From IMG/VR virus record IMGVR_UViG_3300025674_000164, positions 1-35,189 of that record: DNA of 35,189 bases. One strand, 5' to 3'. The position numbers were made by a program, and so were the translations under genes. This stretch comes from a virus. The notes under the pieces were generated by a model. It was not told the DNA's origin and did no database searches. It saw only the letters and a list, made by a program, of their open reading frames with translations. Shown here piece after piece: positions 3,099-33,686 of the stretch (position 1 is its first letter; each line of letters opens with the position of its first letter).

Positions 3099-4687
3099 TG
3101 ACTAAATTGCGTGATATTGCACGTATTTTATCGCGCACTGAGGCAGCAAATACTGACAATCAGAGATTATTGATTGCTGGTGAAGCCTTTGATTCCAATT
3201 TAGCAACACCCATTATTAATTCTTCTCTACCAGCAATATCATCAATATTCCAAACTCACGATTCATTACCTACCGATAATTTAAGTATGGGCGACACTGC
3301 ACTTGTTATTGATAGTGAAAAGTATTATTTTAGTGATGGTAATATTTGGTATTCTGTTGGTGTATTTAACCAAATACCTGATTGGGATGCCGCATTTACT
3401 GCAACATATGAAGTTGCTGATGAAGATACAAATCTGGTAATTACTAATACTGCCTCTGATTCAGATGATCCAGATGGAATTTTTACATACAGTGGTGAGG
3501 TATATGCACCTCAGGTTCCAGTTGCCAATACGCTAATGACAAGTATTACAGTTGATTCTGATGTTGGATCCTGGACATTTAACGCTGCACCTGAGACAAG
3601 TGTTCTTCCAGTCTATGATGCAGATGGAACCGGTGGATCTACTTTTAAATATATTTTTAGAGCAACAGACGGTATTAATACAATAACAGATAGTGCTACT
3701 ATTGATTGGACATTTCCTTCAGTGCCTCCAGTGACATGGCCTTCTCGTAGTACGTATGGTGGCACAACTTACGGTTATGCCATGGGTGGTCAGGCCGATA
3801 CTGATAGAATGGAAAGGTGGTCCTTATCATCTGACGGTAATGCCGCATTTGTAGGGAATTTAGGTAGTGGCACTTTCTTAGGTGGTTCAGGTGGTTCCGG
3901 AACATATGGGTATGTTTTCGGAAGTGGTTTACAATGGCAAAAATATCAATATTCCAGTGATACAGATGTTTATAACGTTCGAGATACCACATTTCCAAAT
4001 AACATCTCACAAGCAGCAACAGGTATGAGTGGAAATAGGTCAAAAGGGTATTTAATGGGTACTGGGTGGCCATCACCAGCAAATAGTAGCATTAAAAATT
4101 ATTATGATCGTATTACTTACAGTACAGACACTTGGGCGACTAATGTTGGCACACTTACGACATATTCAGATACTTATGGTGGTATGGTAAATAGTTCACC
4201 AACACAGCAATATACTACTGGTGGGGGAATATACAGAAGTTCATTTCCGTATGGTGAAAGTGTTGCTACATCAATATATTCATTTCCTTTTGCGAGTGAA
4301 GGAGCAACATCAGATATAGGTTATGATAACTTATGGCCATATTCAGCCTCACTATATGGTAGTTCTGCTTCATCAACTACCTATGGATATAATTTTGGTG
4401 GTGTGAATTACCAACCAGCGCCAGATACATATTCGAATAGTGTTACAAAATTTCCATTTGCTAATAATTCCAATTCTACATTGGTTGGAAGTATGGCCTC
4501 AGCAAAATCAACTAGGGTAGCTGGAGTTTCATCTACAAGTCATGGTTATATGGCTGGTGGTGTTTCAACACCTTGGTCACCAGATGCTAATGGCATCGGT
4601 AAATTTTCATTTGCATCCGATGCTAATGCCACAGATGTGGGTGATTTAACATACGCAGATTACGGTAAAACTGGAGGGCAATATTAA
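3098..4687 (+). CDS. Tail-appendage protein: shared N-terminal module, Ig/cadherin-like domain, Kelch-like propeller
   Basis: 529 residues. Residues 1-90 (MTKLRDIARILSRTEAANTD to GNIWYSVGVF) are a module shared with the next two genes, presumably an attachment or capping domain. Residues about 95-206 look like a cadherin/Big-type beta domain (TNTASDSDDPDGIFTY, FRATDGINTITDSATI). Residues about 215-529 contain six repeats of the type (Y/H)GY-x-x-GG followed by KFSFASDANATDVGDL-like strands, as in Kelch-type beta-propellers of marine phage appendages. A receptor or surface-glycan binding role is likely. It is coupled to both neighbours by TAATG. Confidence 0.8.
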   Translation: MTKLRDIARILSRTEAANTDNQRLLIAGEAFDSNLATPIINSSLPAISSIFQTHDSLPTDNLSMGDTALVIDSEKYYFSDGNIWYSVGVFNQIPDWDAAFTATYEVADEDTNLVITNTASDSDDPDGIFTYSGEVYAPQVPVANTLMTSITVDSDVGSWTFNAAPETSVLPVYDADGTGGSTFKYIFRATDGINTITDSATIDWTFPSVPPVTWPSRSTYGGTTYGYAMGGQADTDRMERWSLSSDGNAAFVGNLGSGTFLGGSGGSGTYGYVFGSGLQWQKYQYSSDTDVYNVRDTTFPNNISQAATGMSGNRSKGYLMGTGWPSPANSSIKNYYDRITYSTDTWATNVGTLTTYSDTYGGMVNSSPTQQYTTGGGIYRSSFPYGESVATSIYSFPFASEGATSDIGYDNLWPYSASLYGSSASSTTYGYNFGGVNYQPAPDTYSNSVTKFPFANNSNSTLVGSMASAKSTRVAGVSSTSHGYMAGGVSTPWSPDANGIGKFSFASDANATDVGDLTYADYGKTGGQY

Positions 4688-7227
4688 TGACTAAGTCAAG
4701 GGATATTGCAAAAATTCTTGGCGTTACCGAGGATAACAATCCTAACAGTTCAAGAATATTATTTTTAGATGAGAGTCTGGACTCTGCAAGAATTACAGAT
4801 ATTGCAGATACGACTTCACCATCATTAACTGTATATGATTCTGTTAACGAATTACCTGTACAGAGTTTAGTATCTGGTACACAGGCTTATGTGAAATCAA
4901 ATAAAAGATTATATGTGACACTAAATAATGCCTATTATAATATTGCCACAGTTAACCTGACACCTACAGTTACATTGGATCCATCTGGTACTATTGTATT
5001 ATCAGATAGTGGTCAACCTTCTGCAATTGTTACCATGATTGCTACTGACTCAGATGGTAGAGATGCTGATTTAACCTTTGCTGTTGAATCAGATGGTAAT
5101 ATGCTTGGAAGGGCAACACTCACACAGGATTCAAGTGTATTTACAATTAATCCATTGACAGCAGATAGTGGCGCAACTACCGGTACATTTACTCTCACTT
5201 TCAAGGCAAATGATGGTATTAATATTGGTACCGCAACAAAAGATTTTAGTTTGACATTTGCTACCAGTGTAGTTGATTCATCTGCTGAAACCATATTATT
5301 GGTAAAGGCAACAGGTAGTGGTTTAGAAAACGATGCAATCACATATAAAAATTCAAGTGATGTAACAACAGGATTTACAGAAACTGGCGACCCAACCGCA
5401 GCCACGTTTTCGCCATATCGTAGTGGTGGGTATAGTACCAATTTTGATGGAACAGGAGATTATCTAAGCATTGATCTTGGTGCAAATGGTGGTCCTGATG
5501 GTGATTGCACATTTGAGTTTTGGGTGTATTATAAAAACGGTAGTACTAATTCTGGGTTCTTTCATCTATCTTCAACATCTGGTGGTTTTAATAGTAGCAA
5601 TAATGCGTACGGTGTTGGAAAACAGTCAAACACATTTAGATTCTATAAGGGTTCTTCTGGGGCAGTTGTTGGTGCAACTGCCCACGCAGATTACGATAAT
5701 ACTTGGGTTCATTTAGCATTAGTAAGATCAAGTGGGACAGTAACACTTTATATAAATGGTGTTGCTGATGCCAACACGGGTACAAATAATAATGACAACT
5801 CTAACAAAAGATATTTAGCAATAGGTGGTTATTATAGTACTTCATTTTTGACTCCCTCATATATTAGAGATTTTAGATATGTAAAGGGCACTGCTGTTTA
5901 TACCTCTAACTTTACGCCTCCAACAGAACCACTCACTGCTATTTCAGGTACACAGTTCTTGATGGGAAGTCTTCCATATTTTGCGGATCAATCAACAAAT
6001 AATCATACATTTACTGTAAATGGTGACACAAGAACTTTACCATACGGACCATATGATTATTCGCCATGGACGGCAGATGATGTTGGTGGCTCTGTTTATC
6101 TTGACGGAACAGGTGATGATTTAACAACAGCGAGTTCTAGTGATTTTGCTTATGGCACAGGTGATTTTACCTGGGAGGCATGGATATATGTCACTGGAGC
6201 AAAAGCTAATCACTATTTACTAGATCATGGTTCTAATGGTGGAACTATGAACATTGCAAATACTAAAATTAGATATTATAATTCTACAATAGGTATATCA
6301 AGTGCTCTTTATACTACAGGTGGGACCATCACATATAATGCTTGGCATCATATTGCATTTGTAAGATCCAGTGGAACAACTACAATTTACGTTGATGGTG
6401 CTGTAGGATCAAGTGCTGCTGATACTCATAACTATGGCACACAAGCCGTTACTGTAGGAGACTATGGTAGCGGTGGATATAATTTTCTCGGTTATATTGC
6501 AGACTTACGAATAGTAAAAGGAACCGCAATTTATACCTCTGCATTCACACCACCAACTGCTCCATTATCTCATACAGGTAGTGGAACATCATTACTAATG
6601 AACAATAAGTCAGACGCAAATATCTATGATGCAGCTGCTGGTAATGTTTTGGTTTCTATAGATGATCTCTATGGTAACGGAGTGCAATCAAACACTACAC
6701 CTAGGAAGTTTACCACATCCTCTTCTATGTTCTTTAGTTCAGATGGAAGTTATCTAATAGTCCCTGATACAGAATTACTTGGATTTGGTACCGGAGACTT
6801 TACCTGGGAACTTTGGATCTGGTCTAACGGCATGATTCCTTCCTATGTCTTGGAATTTGGAACAGGTGGTAATAGTGGAATTCATTATCCAACATCTCAG
6901 GGACATCTTTCTTATTATAATTCTACTGTTGGAACAGGAAGCACACTTTATACAACAGGTTTTAGTACATTTGATTCAAGTACATGGATGCATATAGCTG
7001 TTTCACGAGTGAGTGGAACAACTTACCTATTCAAAGATGGTACTCTTACAACATCTGCTAGTGATTCACATAACTATGGTACCTCAAATGCTTTGTATAT
7101 TGGGACATACGGTGCTTCTTTAGGTACCTTAGGTTTTTATGGTAGGATGCAAGATATCAGAATTACAAAGGGCAAAGGCAGATATACATCATCATTTACA
7201 GCCCCAACAGCAGAGTTTGAACTATGA
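4687..7227 (+). CDS. Tail-appendage protein: shared N-terminal module, Ig-like domain, three LamG/concanavalin-like domains
   Basis: 846 residues. Residues 1-90 repeat the module of the preceding gene (MTKSRDIAKILGVTEDNN to AYYNIATVN). Residues about 92-192 are a cadherin/Big-like domain (ATDSDGRDADLTFAV). Three LamG_3-type jelly rolls follow at about 245-415, 465-635 and 700-846. Each contains F-x-G-T-G-D-x-L, CTFEFWV/FTWEAWI/FTWELWI, W-x-H-(L/I)-A, a (Y/F)-(I/V/K)-(N/D)-G hairpin and R-(D/I)-x-R-(Y/I)-x-K-G-x-(A/G)-x-Y-T-S. LamG folds bind glycans, so host-surface adhesion is the likely job. Stop and next start overlap as ATGA. Confidence 0.82.
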   Translation: MTKSRDIAKILGVTEDNNPNSSRILFLDESLDSARITDIADTTSPSLTVYDSVNELPVQSLVSGTQAYVKSNKRLYVTLNNAYYNIATVNLTPTVTLDPSGTIVLSDSGQPSAIVTMIATDSDGRDADLTFAVESDGNMLGRATLTQDSSVFTINPLTADSGATTGTFTLTFKANDGINIGTATKDFSLTFATSVVDSSAETILLVKATGSGLENDAITYKNSSDVTTGFTETGDPTAATFSPYRSGGYSTNFDGTGDYLSIDLGANGGPDGDCTFEFWVYYKNGSTNSGFFHLSSTSGGFNSSNNAYGVGKQSNTFRFYKGSSGAVVGATAHADYDNTWVHLALVRSSGTVTLYINGVADANTGTNNNDNSNKRYLAIGGYYSTSFLTPSYIRDFRYVKGTAVYTSNFTPPTEPLTAISGTQFLMGSLPYFADQSTNNHTFTVNGDTRTLPYGPYDYSPWTADDVGGSVYLDGTGDDLTTASSSDFAYGTGDFTWEAWIYVTGAKANHYLLDHGSNGGTMNIANTKIRYYNSTIGISSALYTTGGTITYNAWHHIAFVRSSGTTTIYVDGAVGSSAADTHNYGTQAVTVGDYGSGGYNFLGYIADLRIVKGTAIYTSAFTPPTAPLSHTGSGTSLLMNNKSDANIYDAAAGNVLVSIDDLYGNGVQSNTTPRKFTTSSSMFFSSDGSYLIVPDTELLGFGTGDFTWELWIWSNGMIPSYVLEFGTGGNSGIHYPTSQGHLSYYNSTVGTGSTLYTTGFSTFDSSTWMHIAVSRVSGTTYLFKDGTLTTSASDSHNYGTSNALYIGTYGASLGTLGFYGRMQDIRITKGKGRYTSSFTAPTAEFEL

Positions 7228-8261: not shown

Positions 8262-10478
8262 ATGCAAAATCGGTTTGCAGACACACGTTCATTTTTATCC
8301 GAAACCAAATTTTATGACGGTTACTCTCGTTTCATCGATGCAGAAAATCGTTATGAATCTTGGGATGAAGCCGTCGATCGTGTCTTATCTATGCACGAGG
8401 AAAATTACTCAGAGCATACAGAAAAATTAAGTAAGTATTTAGAAGAAGCCAGAACGGCATATAAGGAACAACGTGTGCTTGGCGCGCAACGTGCATTACA
8501 GTTTGGTGGTGAACAGTTAAAGAAACACCAAATGCGAATGTATAACTGTACCTCATCATATGCAGACCGTCCAGAATTTTTTGGTGAGTTCTTTTATATT
8601 TTGCTTTGTGGTGCAGGTGCAGGGTTTTCTGTACAGGAACATCACATTAAAAAATTACCAAAAATTCAACAACGTACCAAACAAGCAAAAGGGTATATCG
8701 TAGAGGATTCAATTGAAGGTTGGGCATCTGCTCTTGATGTATTAATGGCATCATATATGGTAGGTGGTGGTAAATTTCCAGAATATGAAGGCCGTCGTGT
8801 ATTCTTTGATTTATCAAATATTCGTCCAAAAGGCGCAAAGATTTCAGGTGGGTTTAAAGCTCCTGGTCCAGAAGGTTTACGTAAATCACTAGATAAAATT
8901 GAACATATGTTGCAAGGTATGGTAATGGATGAAAAGGATCCAATTAAAATTAGACCTATTGCAGTATATGATATTTGTATGCATGCGGCAGATGCAGTAT
9001 TATCCGGTGGAGTCCGTCGTTCAGCCACTATCTGTTTGTTCTCACCTGAAGATGATGAGATGATGAATGCAAAGACTGGTAACTGGTTTATGGATAATCC
9101 ACAGCGTGGTCGTTCAAACAACTCTGCAGTGATTGTCCGTGATGAAGCTACTCCAGAGATGTTTGCAAAAATTATGGAATCAGTTAAATCGTTTGGTGAA
9201 CCAGGTTTCTACTTTACTACTTCTAAGGAACACACAACTAATCCATGTGTTGAAATTGGTATGTTCCCACAGTATAAAGGCAAGTCAGGTTGGCAAGGCT
9301 GTAACTTGACAGAGATCAATGGTGGTAAATGTGTAACAGAAGAGGACTTCTATAAGGCTTGTCGTTCTGCTGCAATCCTTGGAACACTTCAAGCAGGGTA
9401 TACAGACTTTAAATTCCTATCTGATACATCCAAAAAAATCTTTGACCGTGAGGCATTACTTGGGGTTTCCATTACTGGTTGGATGAATAATCCAGATGTT
9501 TTATTTGATACCAAAATCCTGAAAAAAGGTGCCAATATAGTTAAAAAGGTAAACAAAGAAGTTGCTGAAATTATTGGTATTAATCCTGCAGCACGTACAA
9601 CTTGTGTGAAACCAAGTGGTAATGCCTCAGTATTATTACAGACTGCATCAGGTATTCATGCAGAACACTCTCCAATGTATATCCGTAATATTCAGATGAA
9701 TAAAGAATCTGAAATTACTCAAGCCATCGTTCGGTCAAATCCATTTATGGTTGAGGAATCAGTATGGTCTGCAAATGGTACAGATGTTGTGGTATCATTC
9801 CCTATTGTACCTAAAAACGGTTCCATGTATAAGGATGATCTACTTGGCGTAAAACACTTAGAGCTAGTCAAGAAGGCCCAAAAGTATTGGGTTGTTGAAG
9901 GCACTAATGAAGAACTATGTGCTGATGAAGGTATACGGCATAATGTATCTAATACCATTATCGTTGATGATTGGGATGATGTAGAAAAATATGTATTTGA
10001 AAATAGATATTCGTTTTCTGGTATTTCTTTCCTTGCCCCAACAGGTGATAAGGATTATAACCAAGCACCAAATACGCAGGTCATTACAGCCGATGATATG
10101 GTAAATAAATATGATCAAGGAGCAATATTTGCTTCTGGTATGGTTGTGGATTCTCTTAAGGTATTTGATAATCTTTGGACTGCATGTGCAACAGCTAATG
10201 GTATGGGTGAGGATTTATCTCTTGAATCATCAGAAAATTCTGCAAAGAAAGATTGGGTTCGCCGATATGAAAGATTTGCAGAAAACTATCTAGATGGTGA
10301 TATGAAGAAAACAGAATACTGTTTGAAAGATGCTTATCTGCTTCATAAGTGGAACAAAATTCAAAAGAACCTTAAACATATTGATTGGACAAATGATTTA
10401 ACAGAAAAGGTTTATACTGATGTCGACACGCTCGCGGCAGCGGCTTGTGCAGGTGGGGCCTGCGAAATCGATTTCTAA
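8262..10478 (+). CDS. nrdJ: Class II (adenosylcobalamin-dependent) ribonucleoside-triphosphate reductase
   Basis: 738 residues, almost exactly the length of the monomeric Lactobacillus-type enzyme (739). It reduces ribonucleotides to deoxyribonucleotides using a radical generated from coenzyme B12. Visible features are C96 in YNCTSSY and C347 in GCNLTEI (the reducible pair), N-P-C329-V-E331 (radical Cys and catalytic Glu), the class II segment IRPKGAKISGGFKAPG at 187-202, and the C-terminal relay pair C729-x4-C734 in ACAGGACEIDF. All expected residues are present and no intron or intein interrupts it. AAGGA lies about 9 nt before the ATG. The 3' end overlaps the next gene by 59 nt. Confidence 0.93.
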   Translation: MQNRFADTRSFLSETKFYDGYSRFIDAENRYESWDEAVDRVLSMHEENYSEHTEKLSKYLEEARTAYKEQRVLGAQRALQFGGEQLKKHQMRMYNCTSSYADRPEFFGEFFYILLCGAGAGFSVQEHHIKKLPKIQQRTKQAKGYIVEDSIEGWASALDVLMASYMVGGGKFPEYEGRRVFFDLSNIRPKGAKISGGFKAPGPEGLRKSLDKIEHMLQGMVMDEKDPIKIRPIAVYDICMHAADAVLSGGVRRSATICLFSPEDDEMMNAKTGNWFMDNPQRGRSNNSAVIVRDEATPEMFAKIMESVKSFGEPGFYFTTSKEHTTNPCVEIGMFPQYKGKSGWQGCNLTEINGGKCVTEEDFYKACRSAAILGTLQAGYTDFKFLSDTSKKIFDREALLGVSITGWMNNPDVLFDTKILKKGANIVKKVNKEVAEIIGINPAARTTCVKPSGNASVLLQTASGIHAEHSPMYIRNIQMNKESEITQAIVRSNPFMVEESVWSANGTDVVVSFPIVPKNGSMYKDDLLGVKHLELVKKAQKYWVVEGTNEELCADEGIRHNVSNTIIVDDWDDVEKYVFENRYSFSGISFLAPTGDKDYNQAPNTQVITADDMVNKYDQGAIFASGMVVDSLKVFDNLWTACATANGMGEDLSLESSENSAKKDWVRRYERFAENYLDGDMKKTEYCLKDAYLLHKWNKIQKNLKHIDWTNDLTEKVYTDVDTLAAAACAGGACEIDF

Positions 10479-17706: not shown

Positions 17707-18474
17707 ATGAAAAATTTAGTATTTCAATATTATATACCGTATGAAATGAATGATGCAGACCTTGGTGGAATAGAGATGCCTGAATGGGCAAAGGCTGGTT
17801 CTCGTTCTGCTAAGGCTTATGCAGATATATGTGGCGCTGAATATATTTTAGATCACACCAGATATTTTCAACACATAGATCCAAGACTAGATTCCACCAA
17901 ATTAATATTCGATGAGAAATGGGATGAATACGATAATATTCTTTCCATTGATTTGGATATGCTTATTTCTACCAAGTGGAACATTTTTGATTATATAATT
18001 GGTGATGTTGCAATGGTACATGAGCTTGGTGTTCATACCGGTGGTCCTGCAAGATGGATGCAAAGAGTAATGGATGTGCCTCTTTATCAAAGAGGTATTA
18101 TTGCATATGGTAAACATCTGTTTGGTGAAAAATGGATGTTTCCAAAGTCTGAAAAATATCCAGAAGAAAGATTCCGTTACCTAAATGGTGGACTGCAATT
18201 ATGGTCACGTGAAGGTAGACAAAAGGCAAGAGAACATTTTACCTCACTTGATGATTATATAATACACACTCGTTATACTGAACAGATGTATATCAATTTG
18301 CAATTATCACAACCAGTATTTGATGTGGTTGAACTTGATACATCATGGAATCGACTGCCTTATCAGTGGCCAAATAAACAACCTGATGGTAAAATTAATC
18401 ATTTTCTTGCCAGAACAAAATTTAATATGCCAGAACTTGAAAAAACGGAGTTAAGTGTATGGGACAATTCTTAG
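17707..18474 (+). CDS. GT-A-type glycosyltransferase-like protein (first of three paralogues)
   Basis: 255 residues. Opens with VFQYYIP, then an alpha/beta region leading to IDLDM with D82-x-D84, the metal and nucleotide-sugar binding motif of GT-A folds. The pattern 'DEYDNILSIDLDML', the later NGGLQLWSREGRQKAREHF and 'YTEQMYINLQL' recur in the genes at 19345 and 20726, indicating a family that has multiplied here. It probably transfers a sugar onto a cell-surface or virion glycan. Overlaps the next gene by 16 nt. Confidence 0.78.
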   Translation: MKNLVFQYYIPYEMNDADLGGIEMPEWAKAGSRSAKAYADICGAEYILDHTRYFQHIDPRLDSTKLIFDEKWDEYDNILSIDLDMLISTKWNIFDYIIGDVAMVHELGVHTGGPARWMQRVMDVPLYQRGIIAYGKHLFGEKWMFPKSEKYPEERFRYLNGGLQLWSREGRQKAREHFTSLDDYIIHTRYTEQMYINLQLSQPVFDVVELDTSWNRLPYQWPNKQPDGKINHFLARTKFNMPELEKTELSVWDNS

Positions 18475-19058
18475 AAATTGCAGCAGATAGACCACGGGGT
18501 TTAAATTGGACAGTAGTGAATCTGCAAGATAGAGCAGGTGTGGATAACCTTGACCTTACCAATTTGCCTACACCATATATGGATAACCAGTTTGATGGTA
18601 TTTACTCAGAACACTTTATTGAACATATGCACAAATACCAAGGAATAAATTTTTTTAAAGAGGCATACCGTATCCTAAAACCTGGTGGAACAATTCGTAC
18701 CGTTTGGCCACCTTATGAGTTTGTGGAAAAATTAGTGAGTGATGAAAGATTAGAACCAGACGAAAAAGAGTTTGTGGATCACTATCATGCATTCTATGTT
18801 GTAAAACATAAGTTTGCTGCACCAGGAAATCATCATAGAAGTAAAAGAGAACAATGCGCACTTGGGTTATTATATCAGAATGGTGAACATTTATATATCT
18901 GGAGAAAGCAAGAAATGATCGATGCACTTAAGGATATCGGATTTAGAGTAGTAAAGGAATGTAAATACCAAGAAAGCAGTGTTCCTGATTTTAAAAATAT
19001 TGATACACCAGGTAAAATTCGTATGTTGCATTCAGCAGTTGTTGAGGCAAAGAAATGA
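18459..19058 (+). CDS. Methyltransferase-11-like protein lacking the N-terminal SAM motif
   Basis: 199 residues. It has the second half of the class I fold: VDNLDLTNLPTPYMDNQFDG, IYSEHFIEHM and FKEAYRILKPGGTIRTVWP, as in SAM-dependent enzymes of surface-glycan clusters. The usual glycine-rich motif I (LxLGCG) before it is missing. The start reads MGQFLEIAADRPRGLNW instead. Upstream sequence in the frame belongs to the preceding glycosyltransferase region, so this is not an obvious mis-start. Either SAM binding differs or the protein is non-catalytic. Confidence 0.75.
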   Translation: MGQFLEIAADRPRGLNWTVVNLQDRAGVDNLDLTNLPTPYMDNQFDGIYSEHFIEHMHKYQGINFFKEAYRILKPGGTIRTVWPPYEFVEKLVSDERLEPDEKEFVDHYHAFYVVKHKFAAPGNHHRSKREQCALGLLYQNGEHLYIWRKQEMIDALKDIGFRVVKECKYQESSVPDFKNIDTPGKIRMLHSAVVEAKK

Positions 19059-19348
19059 GAATCGTAACTGAATTTGATGGTAAACAGCAAAAATTTCACT
19101 ATTATTGGTTACCACTTATATACAAACATAATGAATGCCAATTTTATATTCAGGCACCCAGAGGATTTGTATATCCAAAAGATATAAAAAATCTAAAAGT
19201 AAATGAAGTTCCAAGTGGCAAAGGTCCAACGCTAAGATGCCCTATGAACTTGGTACCTACATATATTGCAATGGAACGATTTGGTAAAAAGAAAAGTGAC
19301 TGGGATGGAACCCCTGAAGATCTAGGTGAAAGGTTTTATGAGGTATGA
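19055..19348 (+). CDS. Small hypothetical protein inside the glycan cluster
   Basis: 97 residues, beta-rich by eye (KFHYYWLPLIYKHNECQFYI), with one Cys pair and the ending WDGTPEDLGERFYEV. Coupled by ATGA to the methyltransferase upstream and the glycosyltransferase downstream, so it is made with them. I cannot tell whether it is an accessory of those enzymes. Confidence 0.7.
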   Translation: MRIVTEFDGKQQKFHYYWLPLIYKHNECQFYIQAPRGFVYPKDIKNLKVNEVPSGKGPTLRCPMNLVPTYIAMERFGKKKSDWDGTPEDLGERFYEV

Positions 19349-20016
19349 ATATAATATTACAACACTTTGATGGTGACCTAAGACCACTTGATGAAAAGTC
19401 CGTAGAAAATATTATGGCATATGCCGATATGGTTGGTGCAGATTATCGTCTGATCCGTGGCAAACCATTTCGCAAACATCTCACATCTCCATGTCAAAAA
19501 GTGTATATGTTGGATAAAGAATTTGATGAGTATGATCAGGTGCTCATGCTTGATATTGATATGTTTGCGCCAAAGGGTATGACCGAAAATATATTTGAAC
19601 TTGAGGGTGTTGGTTTATATGCCGATGTGCAGAAAATGCTTCATAGAAAAATTGCTGCACAATATCCAATGATTGCAAGTTTATCAGTTCCATATTGGGG
19701 TGGTGCCATTTATAAAATGGATAAAACAATGCGCATGACACTTAGGCAACATCTAGATGGTAATGAAGGATGGATGAACAATTATAATAAACTTTATCAT
19801 TTTGAAGATGAAGGAATCATGCACACTCTTGCTTATAGGCAAGGATTAAAATGTGAAGATAAATATATTTTGAATCAGAAATGGTGTCAGTGTTCATTTT
19901 TACCTAATCCAGAAAATGCTGGATTTATTCATGTTCGTACCAAAATAACCCCTTCCGGGCCAAAACGTGAAAAGATAGAAAATTACAAAGAGTTAGTTGA
20001 AAAAGAAATATTATGA
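19345..20016 (+). CDS. GT-A-type glycosyltransferase-like protein (second paralogue)
   Basis: 223 residues. The segment DEYDQVLMLDIDMFAPKG carries D70-x-D72. YWGGAIYKMDKTMRMTLRQH and FEDEGIMHTLAYRQG correspond to acceptor-side and second metal regions of the paralogue at 17707. The C-terminus NAGFIHVRTKI resembles the histidine-containing end of GT8-like enzymes. ATGA overlaps on both sides. Probably adds a sugar from a host nucleotide-sugar donor. Confidence 0.77.
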   Translation: MNIILQHFDGDLRPLDEKSVENIMAYADMVGADYRLIRGKPFRKHLTSPCQKVYMLDKEFDEYDQVLMLDIDMFAPKGMTENIFELEGVGLYADVQKMLHRKIAAQYPMIASLSVPYWGGAIYKMDKTMRMTLRQHLDGNEGWMNNYNKLYHFEDEGIMHTLAYRQGLKCEDKYILNQKWCQCSFLPNPENAGFIHVRTKITPSGPKREKIENYKELVEKEIL

Positions 20017-20729
20017 CCTATATGGCATACTGGGGTGATCATGATGGTCCTAACTTTGGTGATATACTAAACGGACCTCTTTTGGATCACTATGGTGTGA
20101 ATTATAAACACACAAGAGATTATCCCGCAGGCAATTTATTTGTTATAGGATCCGTGGCAAGATTGGCATTACCTGGATCAATAGTAGTTGGTTCTGGTGC
20201 TATTCGTAAAACAGAAGTCTATAATCCGTCTGTTAATTTCCGTAGTGTAAGAGGTCCGAGAACTCGTGAAATGGTATTAAAGGGTGGTGGTAACTGCCCT
20301 GAGATTTATGGTGACCCTGCTCTTTTATTACCACGTATTGTTCCAGCGCAAGAAAAGAAATATAAAATAGGTTGCACAGTTCACTACGTTCATCGTAAAC
20401 CTCATATTATTGATTCATTAAAAAAGTCTGGTTATCATTATATCGACATCTTTAACGAAGACCCTCTTGAAGTTGCAAAAGAAATATCGCGTTGTGAAAA
20501 AATGATATCAACTAGTTTACATGGTATTATTGCTGCTCATGCATATGGAATACCTGCTGCACACTTTCACTTTAATGGTAAAAAACTTCATGGCGATGGA
20601 GTAAAGTTCCTGGATCATTATGAGGCTATGAATTTGGACCATAGTTGCGATCGTATAGATAATTTAGTGTTTAGGGTTGGTACATTACCAAATCTAAATT
20701 TAATTGAAAATGAGATAAAAAAATTATGA
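20013..20729 (+). CDS. Polysaccharide pyruvyltransferase-like protein
   Basis: 238 residues. The family pattern is clear: N-F-G-D-I-L-N at 14-20, VIGSVARLALPGSIVVGSGA, VRGPRTREM, GDPALLLP and STSLHGIIAAHAYGIPA. Enzymes of this type (ExoV/CsaB-like) add a pyruvate ketal to sugars of exopolysaccharide or cell-wall glycans using phosphoenolpyruvate. A phage copy would add a negative charge to the glycan built by the neighbouring enzymes. Coupled by ATGA on both sides. Confidence 0.85.
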   Translation: MTYMAYWGDHDGPNFGDILNGPLLDHYGVNYKHTRDYPAGNLFVIGSVARLALPGSIVVGSGAIRKTEVYNPSVNFRSVRGPRTREMVLKGGGNCPEIYGDPALLLPRIVPAQEKKYKIGCTVHYVHRKPHIIDSLKKSGYHYIDIFNEDPLEVAKEISRCEKMISTSLHGIIAAHAYGIPAAHFHFNGKKLHGDGVKFLDHYEAMNLDHSCDRIDNLVFRVGTLPNLNLIENEIKKL

Positions 20730-21526
20730 AGGCACTAATATATCAATTTTGGGAAGGCAAGATTTCATCTGGAAATAGAGCAGGTGTAGACCTAATGGAA
20801 CAATATGCCAAAAGGATTGGAGTAGAACATCAGTTCGAAACTAACCCATCTTGGCCATCCGATTGTCATATACAGAGAAAAGGATTAGGTAGATATAATC
20901 CACACTATGGTGCTTTCAAACCTATATTTGATTCATATTATGATGATTATGATTATATTCTATTTTGTGATACAGATGTGGTTCCGAGAAACACTTCTGA
21001 AAACATATTTAATGAGTTCGGTTCATTTGATATAGGTGTATGTGAAGAACATATGCAACCAGAGAATAGGCAAAAATATAATATTGGTGGTATTAACAGT
21101 CAGAATGATCTACGTTGGCACGATATAATTAAAGAAAAATATGGTCATAATATGCCTAAAGATGATCAGGGTAGACACAGAGTATTTAATTCTGGCTGTG
21201 TCCTATATAGTAAAGAAGGTAGAAATAAAGCACAATCCGTTTTTAAGGATTTTAAAGAATACACTGATCTGATGGCCAGAAGTGGAATGCCTCCATTTTA
21301 TCAAGGGGATCAAAATTACTTAAATGCAATGTTACCTGCATTTAATTGGACCATAATGGATTATAAATGGAATAGCCAAATATTTTTTCAACCAGGCACA
21401 AGTGGTGATAACAGACCTATTGCAGATTATACCGAAAACGCTAACTTTGTGCATGTACAACTCCGTGGTGCTGATCACTATGATATGGATAGATTAAAGG
21501 GAGTAATAAATTATGCTAACGGCTGA
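20726..21526 (+). CDS. GT-A-type glycosyltransferase-like protein (third paralogue)
   Basis: 266 residues. DDYDYILFCDTDVV carries D82-x-D84. VFNSGCVLYSKEGRNKAQSV and YQGDQNYLNAML are the counterparts of the regions in the paralogues at 17707 and 19345. The C-terminal FVHVQLRGADHYDM holds a likely metal-binding His. Longest of the three. Its last 14 nt overlap the next gene, whose own Shine-Dalgarno (GGGAG) lies inside it. Confidence 0.78.
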   Translation: MKALIYQFWEGKISSGNRAGVDLMEQYAKRIGVEHQFETNPSWPSDCHIQRKGLGRYNPHYGAFKPIFDSYYDDYDYILFCDTDVVPRNTSENIFNEFGSFDIGVCEEHMQPENRQKYNIGGINSQNDLRWHDIIKEKYGHNMPKDDQGRHRVFNSGCVLYSKEGRNKAQSVFKDFKEYTDLMARSGMPPFYQGDQNYLNAMLPAFNWTIMDYKWNSQIFFQPGTSGDNRPIADYTENANFVHVQLRGADHYDMDRLKGVINYANG

Positions 21527-22103
21527 TTTAAAAAAAGTAAAATCGGTAGATGAATTCTACGTACAAATTCGTTCACAACAAGAAGCGTATCACGGTGCAG
21601 ATTATTGCGCTATGCACAATGCTATCCGTAGATATATGAAAGACTGTAGATCATATAAAGAACTTGGAACACATCAAGGTGGTTCTGCATCTGCAGCAAT
21701 GACCTGTAAACACAAACCAGAATATATGGAACTAGTAGATATTAACCATGAAAAATATAGATGGAAATTAAAATCACTTGCCGAACCATATTGTAAAGAA
21801 CATGGCATTGAGCTTGTAGTAAAAGAAGCAGATTCAACTAGTATTAATTCTATAAGTGATCGTGATATTGATATGCTAATGATTGATTCACTGCATATCA
21901 GAAGTCACATGGAAAAAGAATTATCCTTACACGGTCCATACATTCAAAAATATATTATTGCCCATGATACCACTATCTGTCAAGATAGACCAAAAGATGC
22001 TCTTTACCGTTGTCTTTCAGATTTTTGTGATAATAATAGCCGTTGGAGTATTATCGAACGTGGTAAAACAAACGTAGGATATACGGTGTTGAAAAAATCA
22101 TGA
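21513..22103 (+). CDS. SAM-dependent methyltransferase (Methyltransf_24/CmcI-like)
   Basis: 196 residues. Motif I is E-L-G-T-H-Q-G-G-S at 50-58. V-D-I at 75-77 is the acidic ribose-binding position. I-D-S-L-H at 124-128 and I-A-H-D-T at 150-153 give the metal-site pattern of CmcI and rhamnosyl O-methyltransferase-like enzymes. Unlike the methyltransferase at 18459, all SAM-binding elements are present. It probably O-methylates a sugar, capping or masking it. Confidence 0.8.
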   Translation: MLTADLKKVKSVDEFYVQIRSQQEAYHGADYCAMHNAIRRYMKDCRSYKELGTHQGGSASAAMTCKHKPEYMELVDINHEKYRWKLKSLAEPYCKEHGIELVVKEADSTSINSISDRDIDMLMIDSLHIRSHMEKELSLHGPYIQKYIIAHDTTICQDRPKDALYRCLSDFCDNNSRWSIIERGKTNVGYTVLKKS

Positions 22104-22795
22104 TTGCAGTCTCTATTGTCATTCCTCATAATCAGGTTTCCTTTGATGGATATGAAACACTAACTAAATCTTCTGAAAAGGTTCAGAATGAATTTAAGAT
22201 AGAAAAGTTTGATGCAGTAACTCCTGACTTGGCAGATATTGTATTTAAAGGAAATGGAATTAAGTGGACTTATCCCTGGGAAGGAGAGGCAATAGACTTT
22301 GCAAGTGGATTGATAAAACGTGCATATCCAACCACCTACCCTAAAAGACGTATGGCATGTTTTGCTAGTCATTATCTTTTATGGTACAGATCCTTTAAAG
22401 AGGATATTCCTTTATTGGTTTTGGAACACGATTCCGTATTTGTGCATAAGTTTGATCCTCAACCAATTATAGATTCAAAGTATGATATTGTTGGGATCAA
22501 TAACCCTCTTATGGCAACTAGAAGAGCAAAGAAATTTTATGACATCGTAAAAGAGAACAAAGAAGATATACAACCTGTTCCTTCAATAGATGAATGGAAT
22601 GTTCCTCAAGGCCTTGCCGGAAATAGTGCATATATAATTAAACCAAATGGGGCCAAAGAGCTTATTGCGGCCGTTGAAAAATATGGTGCTTGGCCAAATG
22701 ATGCATTAATGTGCAAACAACTGATACCTAATATGGGTGTGACAAGAAGGTTTTATACAAAAGTACAAGGGTTGCCTTCAACTACAACAGGATAG
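22100..22795 (+). CDS. GT25-like glycosyltransferase A
   Basis: 231 residues. RRMACFASHYLLWYRSF at about 83-99 and LVLEHDSVF with E109-x-D111 are the two landmarks of GT25 LPS glycosyltransferases (the 'C-x-x-S-H' helix and the ExD metal motif). PQGLAGNSAYIIKPNGAKEL is the matching later loop. The next gene is a divergent relative with the same landmarks, so this is a tandem pair. Acceptor unknown. Confidence 0.8.
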   Translation: MIAVSIVIPHNQVSFDGYETLTKSSEKVQNEFKIEKFDAVTPDLADIVFKGNGIKWTYPWEGEAIDFASGLIKRAYPTTYPKRRMACFASHYLLWYRSFKEDIPLLVLEHDSVFVHKFDPQPIIDSKYDIVGINNPLMATRRAKKFYDIVKENKEDIQPVPSIDEWNVPQGLAGNSAYIIKPNGAKELIAAVEKYGAWPNDALMCKQLIPNMGVTRRFYTKVQGLPSTTTG

Positions 22796-22798
22796 ATT

Positions 22799-23464
22799 AT
22801 GGAATACGAAGCATATGTCATTACAATTATGGATGAGGAAAAATCCGTAAAGGCCGCAAAAAGGTGTATTAAATCTGCGGCAATGTATAATTTGAATGTG
22901 CAGATGTTTGCGGCATTAACACCAAAGGATGATCCTGAAACTCAGTTTAAAGTTAGGAATATTCCAACCCATAATTTTGAAGAGGTTTATTCCAGACGAG
23001 TAAATTGTATGTCTGCATTTCTTTCACATTTTAGTTTATGGGAAAAATGTGTACTGAGTGGAAAAAGAACAGTAATTTTTGAACATGATGCTTTTGTGAC
23101 TGGCGATGTGCCAGTAAAGGCAAATTTCAGACACTTTATGACATTTTCAAAACCATCATATGGTGAATATAATACACCAACAACTTTGGGTGTCAATCCA
23201 TTAATACAGAAAAGATATTTTGGCGGTGCACATGGATATATTGTAAGTCCAGAAGGTGCATGGATATTAGTTGAGGCCGCGCAAAGAATTGCAAGACCTA
23301 CTGATATATTTTTAAATAGAGAAAACTTTCCATCAATGCAAGAGTATTTTCCTTGGTCGTGTGAGGCCAGGGATAATTTTAGTACTATTCAAAATGCAAA
23401 TGGCTGTCAAAGTAAACACAACTATACATCAAATGGTAATTATGAGTTAGTAAATGTCAAGTAA
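22799..23464 (+). CDS. GT25-like glycosyltransferase B
   Basis: 221 residues. VNCMSAFLSHFSLWEKCV at about 68-85 and VIFEHDAFV with E95-x-D97 mirror the gene before it. FGGAHGYIVSPEGAWILVEA is the matching later region. It starts 3 nt after the previous stop with no strong Shine-Dalgarno, so it is likely translated by re-initiation. Overlaps the next gene by 11 nt. Confidence 0.8.
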   Translation: MEYEAYVITIMDEEKSVKAAKRCIKSAAMYNLNVQMFAALTPKDDPETQFKVRNIPTHNFEEVYSRRVNCMSAFLSHFSLWEKCVLSGKRTVIFEHDAFVTGDVPVKANFRHFMTFSKPSYGEYNTPTTLGVNPLIQKRYFGGAHGYIVSPEGAWILVEAAQRIARPTDIFLNRENFPSMQEYFPWSCEARDNFSTIQNANGCQSKHNYTSNGNYELVNVK

Positions 23465-24134
23465 AAGATATCCCGAATGCGTACTTACTGGTTGTGATTC
23501 TAATACTGAATGGCAACTAAATTGGTTTATTGAAAATTATGGCCAACACGAAAAACGCCCCTTAATCATAGCAGACTTTGGAATGTCCGAAGAATATTTA
23601 AGATATGTTTCGAGTCACCCACAGGTCAATGGTATTATGAACCTCCGTAAAACCAAAGAGGAAGGTTGGTTTAATAAACCAATAGCAATATTTAATTCAC
23701 CAGCAAATAAAACAGTTTGGGTAGATACTGATTGTGAAATAAAAACTAATTTAAATCCTTTATTCAGAATGATTGTTCCTAATAAATTAAATATGGTAGA
23801 GGATAAACCATGGACAAAGAGGCGTGGTGAGATTTGGCATAACTCTGGAGTTGTTGGGGTAATAGGCAGACCAAAAATTTTACATGATTGGTGTAATGAA
23901 ATTCGTGCAAATCCAAAAAAGGGTGATCAAGAAGTCCTACACAGTTTATTGAATCCTATTACAAGAATCACATATATAAATGACATACCATTTGAATGGA
24001 ATGTGATGCGTCTTGCCACAGATGAGGACGGATATACAGGGCCAATAAATATTCAACACCATACAGGGTTTAAAGGTAAGGATAAAATAAAAGGTTTAAT
24101 GAAAATTAGAGAGGCAATATTTAAAAATGGCTAG
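23454..24134 (+). CDS. GT-A-type glycosyltransferase-like protein
   Basis: 226 residues. WVDTDCEIKTNL at about 89-100 carries D91-x-D93. HNSGVVGVIGRPKILHDW and KKGDQEVLHSLL follow as in nucleotide-diphospho-sugar transferases. It is not an obvious paralogue of the 17707/19345/20726 trio: the N-terminus (YPECVLTGCDSNTEWQLNWF) differs. It overlaps the next gene by 8 nt. Confidence 0.75.
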   Translation: MSSKRYPECVLTGCDSNTEWQLNWFIENYGQHEKRPLIIADFGMSEEYLRYVSSHPQVNGIMNLRKTKEEGWFNKPIAIFNSPANKTVWVDTDCEIKTNLNPLFRMIVPNKLNMVEDKPWTKRRGEIWHNSGVVGVIGRPKILHDWCNEIRANPKKGDQEVLHSLLNPITRITYINDIPFEWNVMRLATDEDGYTGPINIQHHTGFKGKDKIKGLMKIREAIFKNG

Positions 24135-24777
24135 AGTGGTTCATGTAATTGGTAATGGTGACTGTGCTGATTTCTACAATCAGGCACCTAGAAAAGGTCT
24201 TAAATTAACCTGTAATTTTTCACCATTTGAAGTACCAGATCAATATGCAACTTGTATTGTTGATTTTAAGATGATGCACGCAATTAATAAGCAAGAGGTA
24301 TCAATGCCTCCTGGCGAATGGATTGTGGGTATGAGACCAAAGTTATATTGTGAAAAACATCCATCGTTTCATATGCGCATTGCTGGACGCATAAAAGAGT
24401 TCTATACGAAGAAGCCAAGTTACTGCCCAAACTACACTGATTTTAATTGTGGTCATATGGCAGTATATTATGCAGCTGCTAAATTAAAAGCAGACGTTGT
24501 TCATATGTGGGGATTTGATTCTATTATGGATTTTAATCTACGATCTTATACTGACCTTGTTATGAATTCAGATCGTGGTAATATGAACAATCACAGACTT
24601 GCCGAAAACTGGAGACCTTTGTGGGCAAACATATTTAATGACTTTAGTGATCAAGGGGAATATTCCAATGGGGAAACTAGGACTAAATTTGTAATTCATC
24701 ATAAACACGATCAAATAAAGTTTCCTGTTACAGATAATGTTTCTATTGAAGTCCACTCAAAAAATGATAAAAAATAA
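24127..24777 (+). CDS. Putative transferase of the glycan cluster, GNG-motif protein
   Basis: 216 residues. Begins VVHVIGNGDCADFY, a Rossmann-like G-N-G opening seen in DUF115/sialyltransferase-like and other glycan-cluster proteins. NCGHMAVYYAAAKLKADVVH at about 109-128 and MWGFDSIMDFN resemble the helix-strand and acidic region after it. The match is by pattern only. It could be a GT-B-half or sialyltransferase-like enzyme. It is the last gene of the unit, and its final Lys-Lys-stop lies in the 39-bp promoter repeat. Confidence 0.65.
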   Translation: MARVVHVIGNGDCADFYNQAPRKGLKLTCNFSPFEVPDQYATCIVDFKMMHAINKQEVSMPPGEWIVGMRPKLYCEKHPSFHMRIAGRIKEFYTKKPSYCPNYTDFNCGHMAVYYAAAKLKADVVHMWGFDSIMDFNLRSYTDLVMNSDRGNMNNHRLAENWRPLWANIFNDFSDQGEYSNGETRTKFVIHHKHDQIKFPVTDNVSIEVHSKNDKK

Positions 24778-32778: not shown

Positions 32779-32952
32779 TTAATATCCCTGCGCAGTTTGT
32801 TCTTGCTGCTGTTTTTCCTTCTGTTCCTTCAGGTGTTGGACAAGCATAGTGAGATATATTTCCCTCTCCCATGGCATCTGATAATCAAGTTCGGATAACG
32901 AATAATTGTGATGCTGCATTAATGAAAAATTTGTTCTGTAAAAATTTTCCAT
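32779..32952 (-). CDS. 57-residue tail-assembly chaperone-like frame (gp51/GpE-like), probably reached by -1 frameshift
   Basis: MENFYRTNFSLMQHHNYSLS..., then E-L-D-Y-Q-M-P-W-E-R-E-I-Y-L and a Gln/Lys-rich tail. The 'S-x-x-E-L-x-x-x-x-P-W-E-R-E' pattern recalls small GpE-type tail chaperones. I also recall similar short proteins called gp51 in marine T4-like phages. The ATG has no Shine-Dalgarno. Its frame is open upstream to the slippery heptamer at the end of gp26, adding LVCLSHEN, so it is likely translated mainly as a 302-residue gp26 fusion. Confidence 0.7.
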   Translation of the reverse strand: MENFYRTNFSLMQHHNYSLSELDYQMPWEREIYLTMLVQHLKEQKEKQQQEQTAQGY

Positions 32953-32957
32953 GTTTT

Positions 32958-32997
32958 CATGCGAGAGGCATACTAGAAAAAATTGTCCATACCCTCC
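32958..32997 (-). promoter_or_regulatory. Candidate -1 programmed ribosomal frameshift signal
   Basis: On the minus strand, in order: GGAGGG (32997-32992), 9 nt, the heptamer T_TTT_TTC read in the gp26 frame (32982-32976), the gp26 stop TAG (32975-32973), then a small stem ATGC/GCAT with loop CTCTC (32971-32959), extendable by one T-G pair. These are the three elements of bacterial -1 frameshift sites such as dnaX: an upstream Shine-Dalgarno, a slippery site and a downstream structure. Confidence 0.68.
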
Positions 32998-33686
32998 AGT
33001 AAAATTTTATTATCATGATTACACTGTTCACAAGTAAATTCCATATCATAACTTAATTTTGGAATATTTCCAATAAACTGTGCAATCTTTTCAAACTGTT
33101 CTGCATTTAAAGAATCCATAAAGGTCATTAATTCTTGCCTTGATTCATTCTTTAAATCAATTCGTTCATCTTCTGTATATAATGTTTTCATACAGGACAT
33201 AATTAAATTCATTGATGCCTCACTTGTTTTGGCATCATCATCAAATACACTTGTATTAGACATAAGATCACTATAAGTTGGATAGTGAAGTTCCATTGAA
33301 ATATCTGGGGTAAGTTGTACCTTTTGAGGTTTAATATCACCAACCACTTTGGATTGCATAATATCAACCTTTGTGTCGTTTTCACTATCACACTTTTGAC
33401 ATTTAACAACTAGTTCGGCAGTTTCACCAACCGACTTTGCCCTAATTCTTGTAAAGATATAATCCACATCAAATGATGCCAAGGAACTAATATCAATATC
33501 CTCTTGTACACATGATCTAATTGTATCAGTAATTGCTCTAATAACCTGTCTTGGTTGATTTGATTCTCCTGCAAGAAGCAAGATTTTTTGTTCTTTGACC
33601 AGAAACGGTCTGTAATGAATAATTTCTCCAGATGATGGTAATTTAAGATCATACCAAATAGTTTCATTCAAACGTGGCAGTGCCAT
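32973..33686 (-). CDS. 26: Baseplate hub assembly protein gp26-like
   Basis: 237 residues. The start PRLNETIWYDLKLPSSGEII and HYRPFLVKEQKILLLAGES are typical of the T4 base plate (gp26) family. Two CxxC knuckles, C96/C99 (KCQKC) and C219/C222 (TCEQC), probably form one zinc ribbon. The C-terminus GMDNFF is coded by the slippery sequence next to the TAG stop. AGGAG lies before the ATG. In T4 gp26 acts with gp51 in hub assembly, which suits the small frame behind it. Confidence 0.82.
   Translation of the reverse strand: MALPRLNETIWYDLKLPSSGEIIHYRPFLVKEQKILLLAGESNQPRQVIRAITDTIRSCVQEDIDISSLASFDVDYIFTRIRAKSVGETAELVVKCQKCDSENDTKVDIMQSKVVGDIKPQKVQLTPDISMELHYPTYSDLMSNTSVFDDDAKTSEASMNLIMSCMKTLYTEDERIDLKNESRQELMTFMDSLNAEQFEKIAQFIGNIPKLSYDMEFTCEQCNHDNKILLEGMDNFF

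Follow-up and report, generated by a model that had tools for sequence, protein, structure and literature searches.

A -1 ribosomal frameshift very likely joins gp26 and gp51 in the T4-like virus analyzed here: slippage at the heptamer U_UUU_UUC, stimulated by an upstream Shine-Dalgarno (SD)-like element and a downstream RNA helix, would yield both a short tail assembly chaperone (TAC-N) and a longer gp26-gp51 fusion (TAC-NC). The heptamer, the open -1 frame, the SD-like element, and the covarying helix are conserved, and a T4-type relative carries a fused gene. In addition, we consider it probable that the gp26/gp51 frameshift of marine T4-like phages is driven by a previously undescribed stimulator, i.e., a helix closing over an 88-nt coding loop, with its 5′ arm 7 nt past U_UUU_UUN and its 3′ arm in conserved gp51 codons, whose 5′ arm has swapped partners over evolution to give local hairpins elsewhere while the slippery site stayed unchanged.

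Layout of the gp26/gp51 junction

The analyzed DNA (the window) is a 35,189-base virus record, and all features of the junction lie on its minus strand:

34362-33697, minus strand: tail-tube-like gene, just 5′ of gp26 (phrog_45 tail tube, 8.7e-27)
33686-32973, minus strand: gp26-like gene (TAC-N, 237 aa), T4_baseplate family (PF12322, 1e-55; phrog_150 baseplate hub, 1e-59)
32997-32992, minus strand: internal SD-like GGAGGG, 9 nt 5′ of the heptamer (anti-SD duplex, -9.8 kcal/mol)
32982-32976, minus strand: slippery heptamer U_UUU_UUC in gp26 phase (sequence; in-phase T6N in relatives)
32975-32973, minus strand: zero-frame gp26 stop TAG (sequence)
32976-32779, minus strand: -1 frame, 65 codons plus TAA, gp51 C-domain (phrog_634, 5.9e-23; phrog_150 positions 242-282)
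32968-32960, minus strand: 5′ arm of the predicted long-range helix, CCTCTC (32968-32963) plus CA (32961-32960) (RNAalifold pair probability ~1.0; covariation)
32871-32863, minus strand: 3′ arm of the predicted long-range helix, TG (32871-32870) plus GAGAGG (32868-32863) (RNAalifold; covariation; window fold z = -3.4)
32777-31086, minus strand: tape-measure-like protein, 563 aa (phrog_58 tail length tape measure, 1.8e-14)

The gp26-like protein passes the curated score of Pfam T4_baseplate (188.9 bits against a cut-off of 24.5). The 3′ end of its gene reads GGAGGG-TATGGACAA-TTTTTTC-TAG, the last codons being AAT-TTT-TTC-TAG. After a -1 shift, the reading continues as CTA GTA TGC CTC TCG CAT GAA AAC ATG and is stop-free to the TAA at 32781-32779; a shift at the heptamer would thus run through the 57-codon gp51 frame to give a 302-aa fusion. 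This -1 frame begins LVCLSHEN, ahead of the sole local ATG (32952-32950), and the tape-measure-like gene starts 1 nt past the gp51 end. The profile of the baseplate hub assembly catalyst gp51 (phrog_634) matches the -1 frame product over profile positions 65-119, and the last part of the gp26 family profile phrog_150 also matches this frame. The gp26/gp51 pair is therefore placed between the tail tube gene upstream and the tape measure gene downstream. The initial annotation, which had located a U_UUU_UUC in the correct phase directly before the gp26 stop, an open -1 frame leading into a 57-residue frame, and a tape-measure-like gene just behind it, agrees with the sequence and the profile matches on all three counts.

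Elsewhere in the window, the plus strand carries genes at 8262-10478 and 4687-7227, one of them ribonucleotide reductase-like and the other resembling a baseplate-wedge virion protein, as well as a run of genes of ~200-270 codons (18459-24777) that includes methyltransferases, glycosyltransferases of families 8 and 25, and a polysaccharide pyruvyl transferase; this run looks like a phage-carried surface-sugar modification cluster.

The slippery heptamer is kept in phase across relatives

Our comparative set comprised 360 loci from IMG/VR, GTDB contigs, and named phages, which gave 299 distinct T4-like junctions. An in-phase T_TTT_TTN was kept in 297 of them, as TTTTTTC (n = 189), TTTTTTT (n = 82), TTTTTTA (n = 22), or TTTTTTG (n = 4). 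The gp26 stop, which may be TAG, TAA, or TGA, lies 0 or 1 codon past the heptamer in 284 of the 297 junctions and 8-9 codons past it in the other 13. Because the heptamer is retained in phase while the stop type changes, its presence is not a matter of chance. It was found in the cyanophages S-PM2, P-SSM2, and ACG-2014, the pelagiphages HTVC008M and Mosig, Methylophilales phage Melnitz, Vibrio phage ValKK3, Sinorhizobium phage phiM9, and Pseudomonas phage pf16. The two junctions lacking it are those of L023 and of L106, a T4-type Aeromonas phage. Collectively, these counts bear out two expectations set down with the initial annotation, namely that the heptamer would be conserved in related gp26-to-tape-measure intervals and that the stop would hold its position relative to it, which it does with slight variation. 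Relatives with a disrupted heptamer but an intact, well-initiated small gene had been named as evidence to the contrary, and one contig with a disrupted heptamer exists: in L023 (~2471-2530), a single base of the heptamer is altered (AGTGTTTTC vs AGTTTTTTC in L025), by either natural loss or sequencing error.

The gp51 frame lacks a conserved start codon

In 131 of the 297 junctions, the gp51 frame contains no ATG, GTG, or TTG between the preceding -1 stop and 16 codons past the slip, and a conserved xxLSHxSLxNYY occupies this startless region. The window's ATG reads TTA in the close relatives L004-L006 and L009-L011, which nevertheless keep LxCLSHE in the -1 frame with third-position changes; the -1 frame thus shows conserved residues, along with synonymous changes, already 5′ of that ATG. 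An open -1 frame kept in relatives and lacking a conserved ATG is what had been anticipated from the window alone. The gp51 frame of L007 (~3717-3880) ends early, after 54 codons, at a stop close to the variable C-terminal tail. In the existing annotations of L017, L018, and L020 (Mosig, C48C1, and Melnitz) and of L019, L108, and L102 (ACG-2014d, ACG-2014b, and S-CAM1), gp51 either has an internal start that cuts the domain or is unannotated, as expected if gp51 has no start codon of its own.

The SD-like element upstream of the heptamer is likewise a family-wide signal. For 8-mers ending 7-9 nt 5′ of the heptamer, the mean binding energy to the anti-SD was ~-5.5 kcal/mol in window-type lineages and ~-6.8 kcal/mol in the others, compared with a gp26 background of ~-0.7 kcal/mol; the window's own element reaches -9.8 kcal/mol. 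The GGAGGG noted at the outset 9 nt 5′ of the heptamer is therefore confirmed, and the signal recurs at that offset. Since no gp51-frame start codon lies within usable distance of it, GGAGGG is more likely to be a frameshift stimulator than an initiation site, judging from the sequence.

Could gp51 nonetheless be a separate gene, translated from its own start or by coupling to gp26, with the heptamer a by-product of an AT-rich FF-stop ending? The window does hold an ATG at 32952-32950, and in many GenBank records gp51 stands as its own CDS with a start close by (e.g., S-PM2 and P-SSM2). However, starts of this kind are not conserved and are often missing altogether, conservation in the -1 frame reaches upstream of the window's ATG, GGAGGG has no start in the gp51 frame at a usable distance, and in Mosig, Melnitz, and C48C1 the conserved domain is truncated by the annotated start; we regard a separate gp51 as very unlikely.

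A long-range helix lies downstream of the heptamer

The CCTCTC that follows the heptamer is complementary to a GAGAGG ~96 nt further on, and, as predicted from this, the third positions of the Leu (CTC/CTT) and Glu (GAG/GAA) codons change in step. The helix pairs CCTCTC(n)CA with TG(n)GAGAGG over an 88-nt loop; it begins 7 nt past the heptamer, and its 3′ arm sits in the PWERE codons of gp51. To describe it, we used a codon-chosen subset of 130 representatives that are <90% identical and carry CTN-TCN ... GAR-AGR codons. With h as the first heptamer base, unconstrained RNAalifold on this subset paired h+15-20 with h+115-120 and h+22-23 with h+112-113 at probabilities of ~1.0, and a run on 100 sequences returned the same helix. 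Six of the eight pairs are invariant in the subset; the two variable ones, both at third codon positions, covary (n = 100; C-G 63 and U-A 23 for one pair; C-G 53, U-A 29, and U-G 6 for the other). Helix cells pair in 97.0% of cases vs 92.8% after shuffling and no more than 72.4% with the arms slid. For the window itself, folding gives the long-range helix and, nested within it, two hairpins (-29.4 kcal/mol; z = -3.4).

Covariation across all column pairs of 241 representatives was dropped, as its top pairs were clade-specific amino-acid differences, and the analysis was therefore restricted to third codon positions and a tree-aware test. Among 1,225 third-position pairs, the two variable helix pairs ranked first and second (APC-corrected G, z = 16.0 and 13.7; next, 5.9). 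The third-ranked pair (codons 19 and 33, z = 5.9) connects codons for hydrophobic residues, and we did not count it as a base pair. On a tree built from the gp26 protein, with the helix arms excluded, both sides of one pair change on 14 branches (19 and 24 changes; 1.8 coincidences expected) and both sides of the other on 12 (28 and 23 changes; 2.5 expected). Swaps between C-G and U-A, in either direction, numbered 13 and 11 (p = 4e-13 and 1.5e-7), and the same two pairs ranked first and second of 1,081, the next best reaching 2.5e-4. Given that a subset chosen by codon biases synonymous resampling, we used a set defined by amino acids instead (L, S, E, and R; n = 141) for that comparison: the full 6-bp core is present in 109 of the 141 sequences, whereas none of 1,000 synonymous resamplings exceeded 15 and swapping 3′ arms between sequences gave no more than 77.

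The conserved downstream structure, as predicted from these alignments, is thus the long-range helix, which the initial annotation had not seen. It had proposed a small ATGC/GCAT stem just downstream of the heptamer, a candidate that we rejected because it is not conserved among relatives (e.g., TGCCTCTCTCATG in L006 and L010). Rfam holds no relevant family for the covarying helix. The core is incomplete in 21 of the 130 subset sequences, which lack one or more of its six pairs, and a local hairpin that beats the synonymous null substitutes in just 6 of these 21.

Local hairpins often take a similar place in other lineages

Where the long-range codons are absent or broken, local stems often begin 4-8 nt past the heptamer. 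P-SSM2-type phages have a AGTATGGCTCA-N9-TGAGTCATACT hairpin in which one pair is exchanged from T-A to A-T (L296) or to G-C (L315), S-PM2 has a 12-bp local stem after the heptamer, and L166, L312, L328, and L343 have a GGGCTCTC-N4-GAGAGCCT hairpin there. In these last four and in L265, a perfect hairpin with a 4-nt loop (GGGCTCTC/GAGAGCCT or GGACTCTC/GAGAGTCT) reuses the 5′ arm, and the long-range partner is lost. A significant local stem (p ≤ 0.05, synonymous-codon null) was detected in 28% of the non-subset sequences vs 3 of 109 with an intact long-range helix. By the tests used, many cyanophage-type sequences have neither the long-range helix nor a local stem; other stimulators, or none, may therefore act in them.

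Two further readings accept the frame change or the frameshift and differ as to its agent or the role of the helix. RNA polymerase slippage on the T run, rather than a slip of the ribosome, might appear plausible for the 68 of 241 representatives with runs of 7-8 T, but the run is just 6 T in 173, and a 6-T run is short for efficient transcriptional slippage. Moreover, a slip of the ribosome is what the strict codon phase, the SD-like element, and the constant distance to a covarying helix would suggest, which makes polymerase slippage extremely improbable. It is also unlikely, if less so, that frameshifting is real and the long-range helix has a different function, for instance in regulating tape-measure translation or mRNA stability: the 3′ arm is 86 nt 5′ of the tape-measure start, yet the 5′ arm keeps a fixed distance of 7 nt from the heptamer although the gp26 stop moves by 0, 1, or 8 codons, and other lineages place a local hairpin at nearly the same spot.

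Predicted products and their role in tail assembly

We thus favor ribosomal frameshifting under a three-part recoding signal made up of the upstream SD-like GGAGGG, the heptamer, and a downstream helix whose 5′ arm would lie 7 nt past the heptamer and whose 3′ arm would lie ~90 nt further, inside gp51. Most ribosomes on gp26 would end at TAG to release the 237-aa TAC-N, and some would slip back one base on U_UUU_UUC to make the 302-aa TAC-NC. These two products are the ones first proposed for the locus, and conservation of the heptamer and of the open frame lends them support. TAC-NC probably bridges the tail tube and a tape measure coated with chaperone, as lambda gpG/gpGT do; we infer this chaperone role from gene position, family membership, and published work on lambda G/GT (PMC5009743) and T4-like TACs.

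A fused gene in the T4 group bears on the architecture of the product. In the T4-type Aeromonas phage 60AhydR15PP, gp26 is on the other strand, and the 249-aa gp51 consists of a complete gp26-like domain (PF12322, residues 2-198) plus the gp51 C-domain, matching phrog_150 to the profile end, gp51 part included. The presence of both domains in a single gene indicates that the T4 group does contain proteins with the architecture of the fusion. AlphaFold modeled gp26 with high confidence (pLDDT 90). A PDB sequence search with the gp26 profile gave no match, and the PDB fold search gave weak tail-chaperone matches only, among them HK97 chaperone 2ob9 (probability 0.35-0.60, E 0.7-0.9).

Relation to known frameshift systems

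The three-part layout is that of the E. coli dnaX signal, in which an internal SD precedes the slippery heptamer A_AAA_AAG and a compact hairpin follows it. The window has the SD-like element and a predicted downstream structure 7 nt past the heptamer; in its lineage, however, U_UUU_UUN and a helix with an 88-nt loop stand in place of A_AAA_AAG and the compact hairpin. Vladimirov and colleagues reportedly found frameshifting conserved in several T4-like groups, with T4 using separate genes 26 and 51. The T4-like tail assembly chaperones gp26/gp51 were identified by Vladimirov, Gautam, and Davidson (2022, Virology 566:9-15), as cited in PMC10885494 and PMC12846349, and the latter credits that study with poly-T slippery signals in T4-like TAC-N genes. 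According to these accounts, the genes, their place before the tape measure, and the poly-T slippery site are the same as here, and some T4-like phages have one short gene and one long-form gene. The frameshift of the window is therefore not itself new, contrary to the initial annotation, which knew of no description for gp26; the window is a new marine member that adds a covarying long-range helix and a quantified SD-like element. In lambda G/GT, a conserved tail-chaperone frameshift (Levin 1993; Xu, Hendrix, and Duda 2004; reviewed in PMC5009743), the short chaperone gene likewise sits between the genes for the tail tube and the tape measure and has a -1 shift toward its end, whereas the heptamer and stimulators differ. 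A -1 frameshift has also been proposed for the myovirus tail chaperone of Pakpunavirus Adele and the Vandenendeviridae, which belong to another family and have another motif, the conserved T-rich GTTTTT; the accessible text of PMC12846349 mentions no covarying RNA structure for them. The searchable literature, which does not extend to Vladimirov et al. (2022), yielded no description of a cyanophage or pelagiphage gp26 frameshift and, for T4-like TACs, no covarying long-range helix or quantified SD-like element. As far as that literature goes, the covarying helix beside the slip site seems to be new.

With one constant slippery site and stimulators that vary in nature, compensatory changes included, these junctions are well suited to testing how the balance between the short and the long tail chaperone depends on the RNA structure downstream and the SD upstream. 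In addition, the frameshift would account for the misannotation of gp51 in T4-like phages, of which those examined here are abundant in marine data, and would supply the correct protein.
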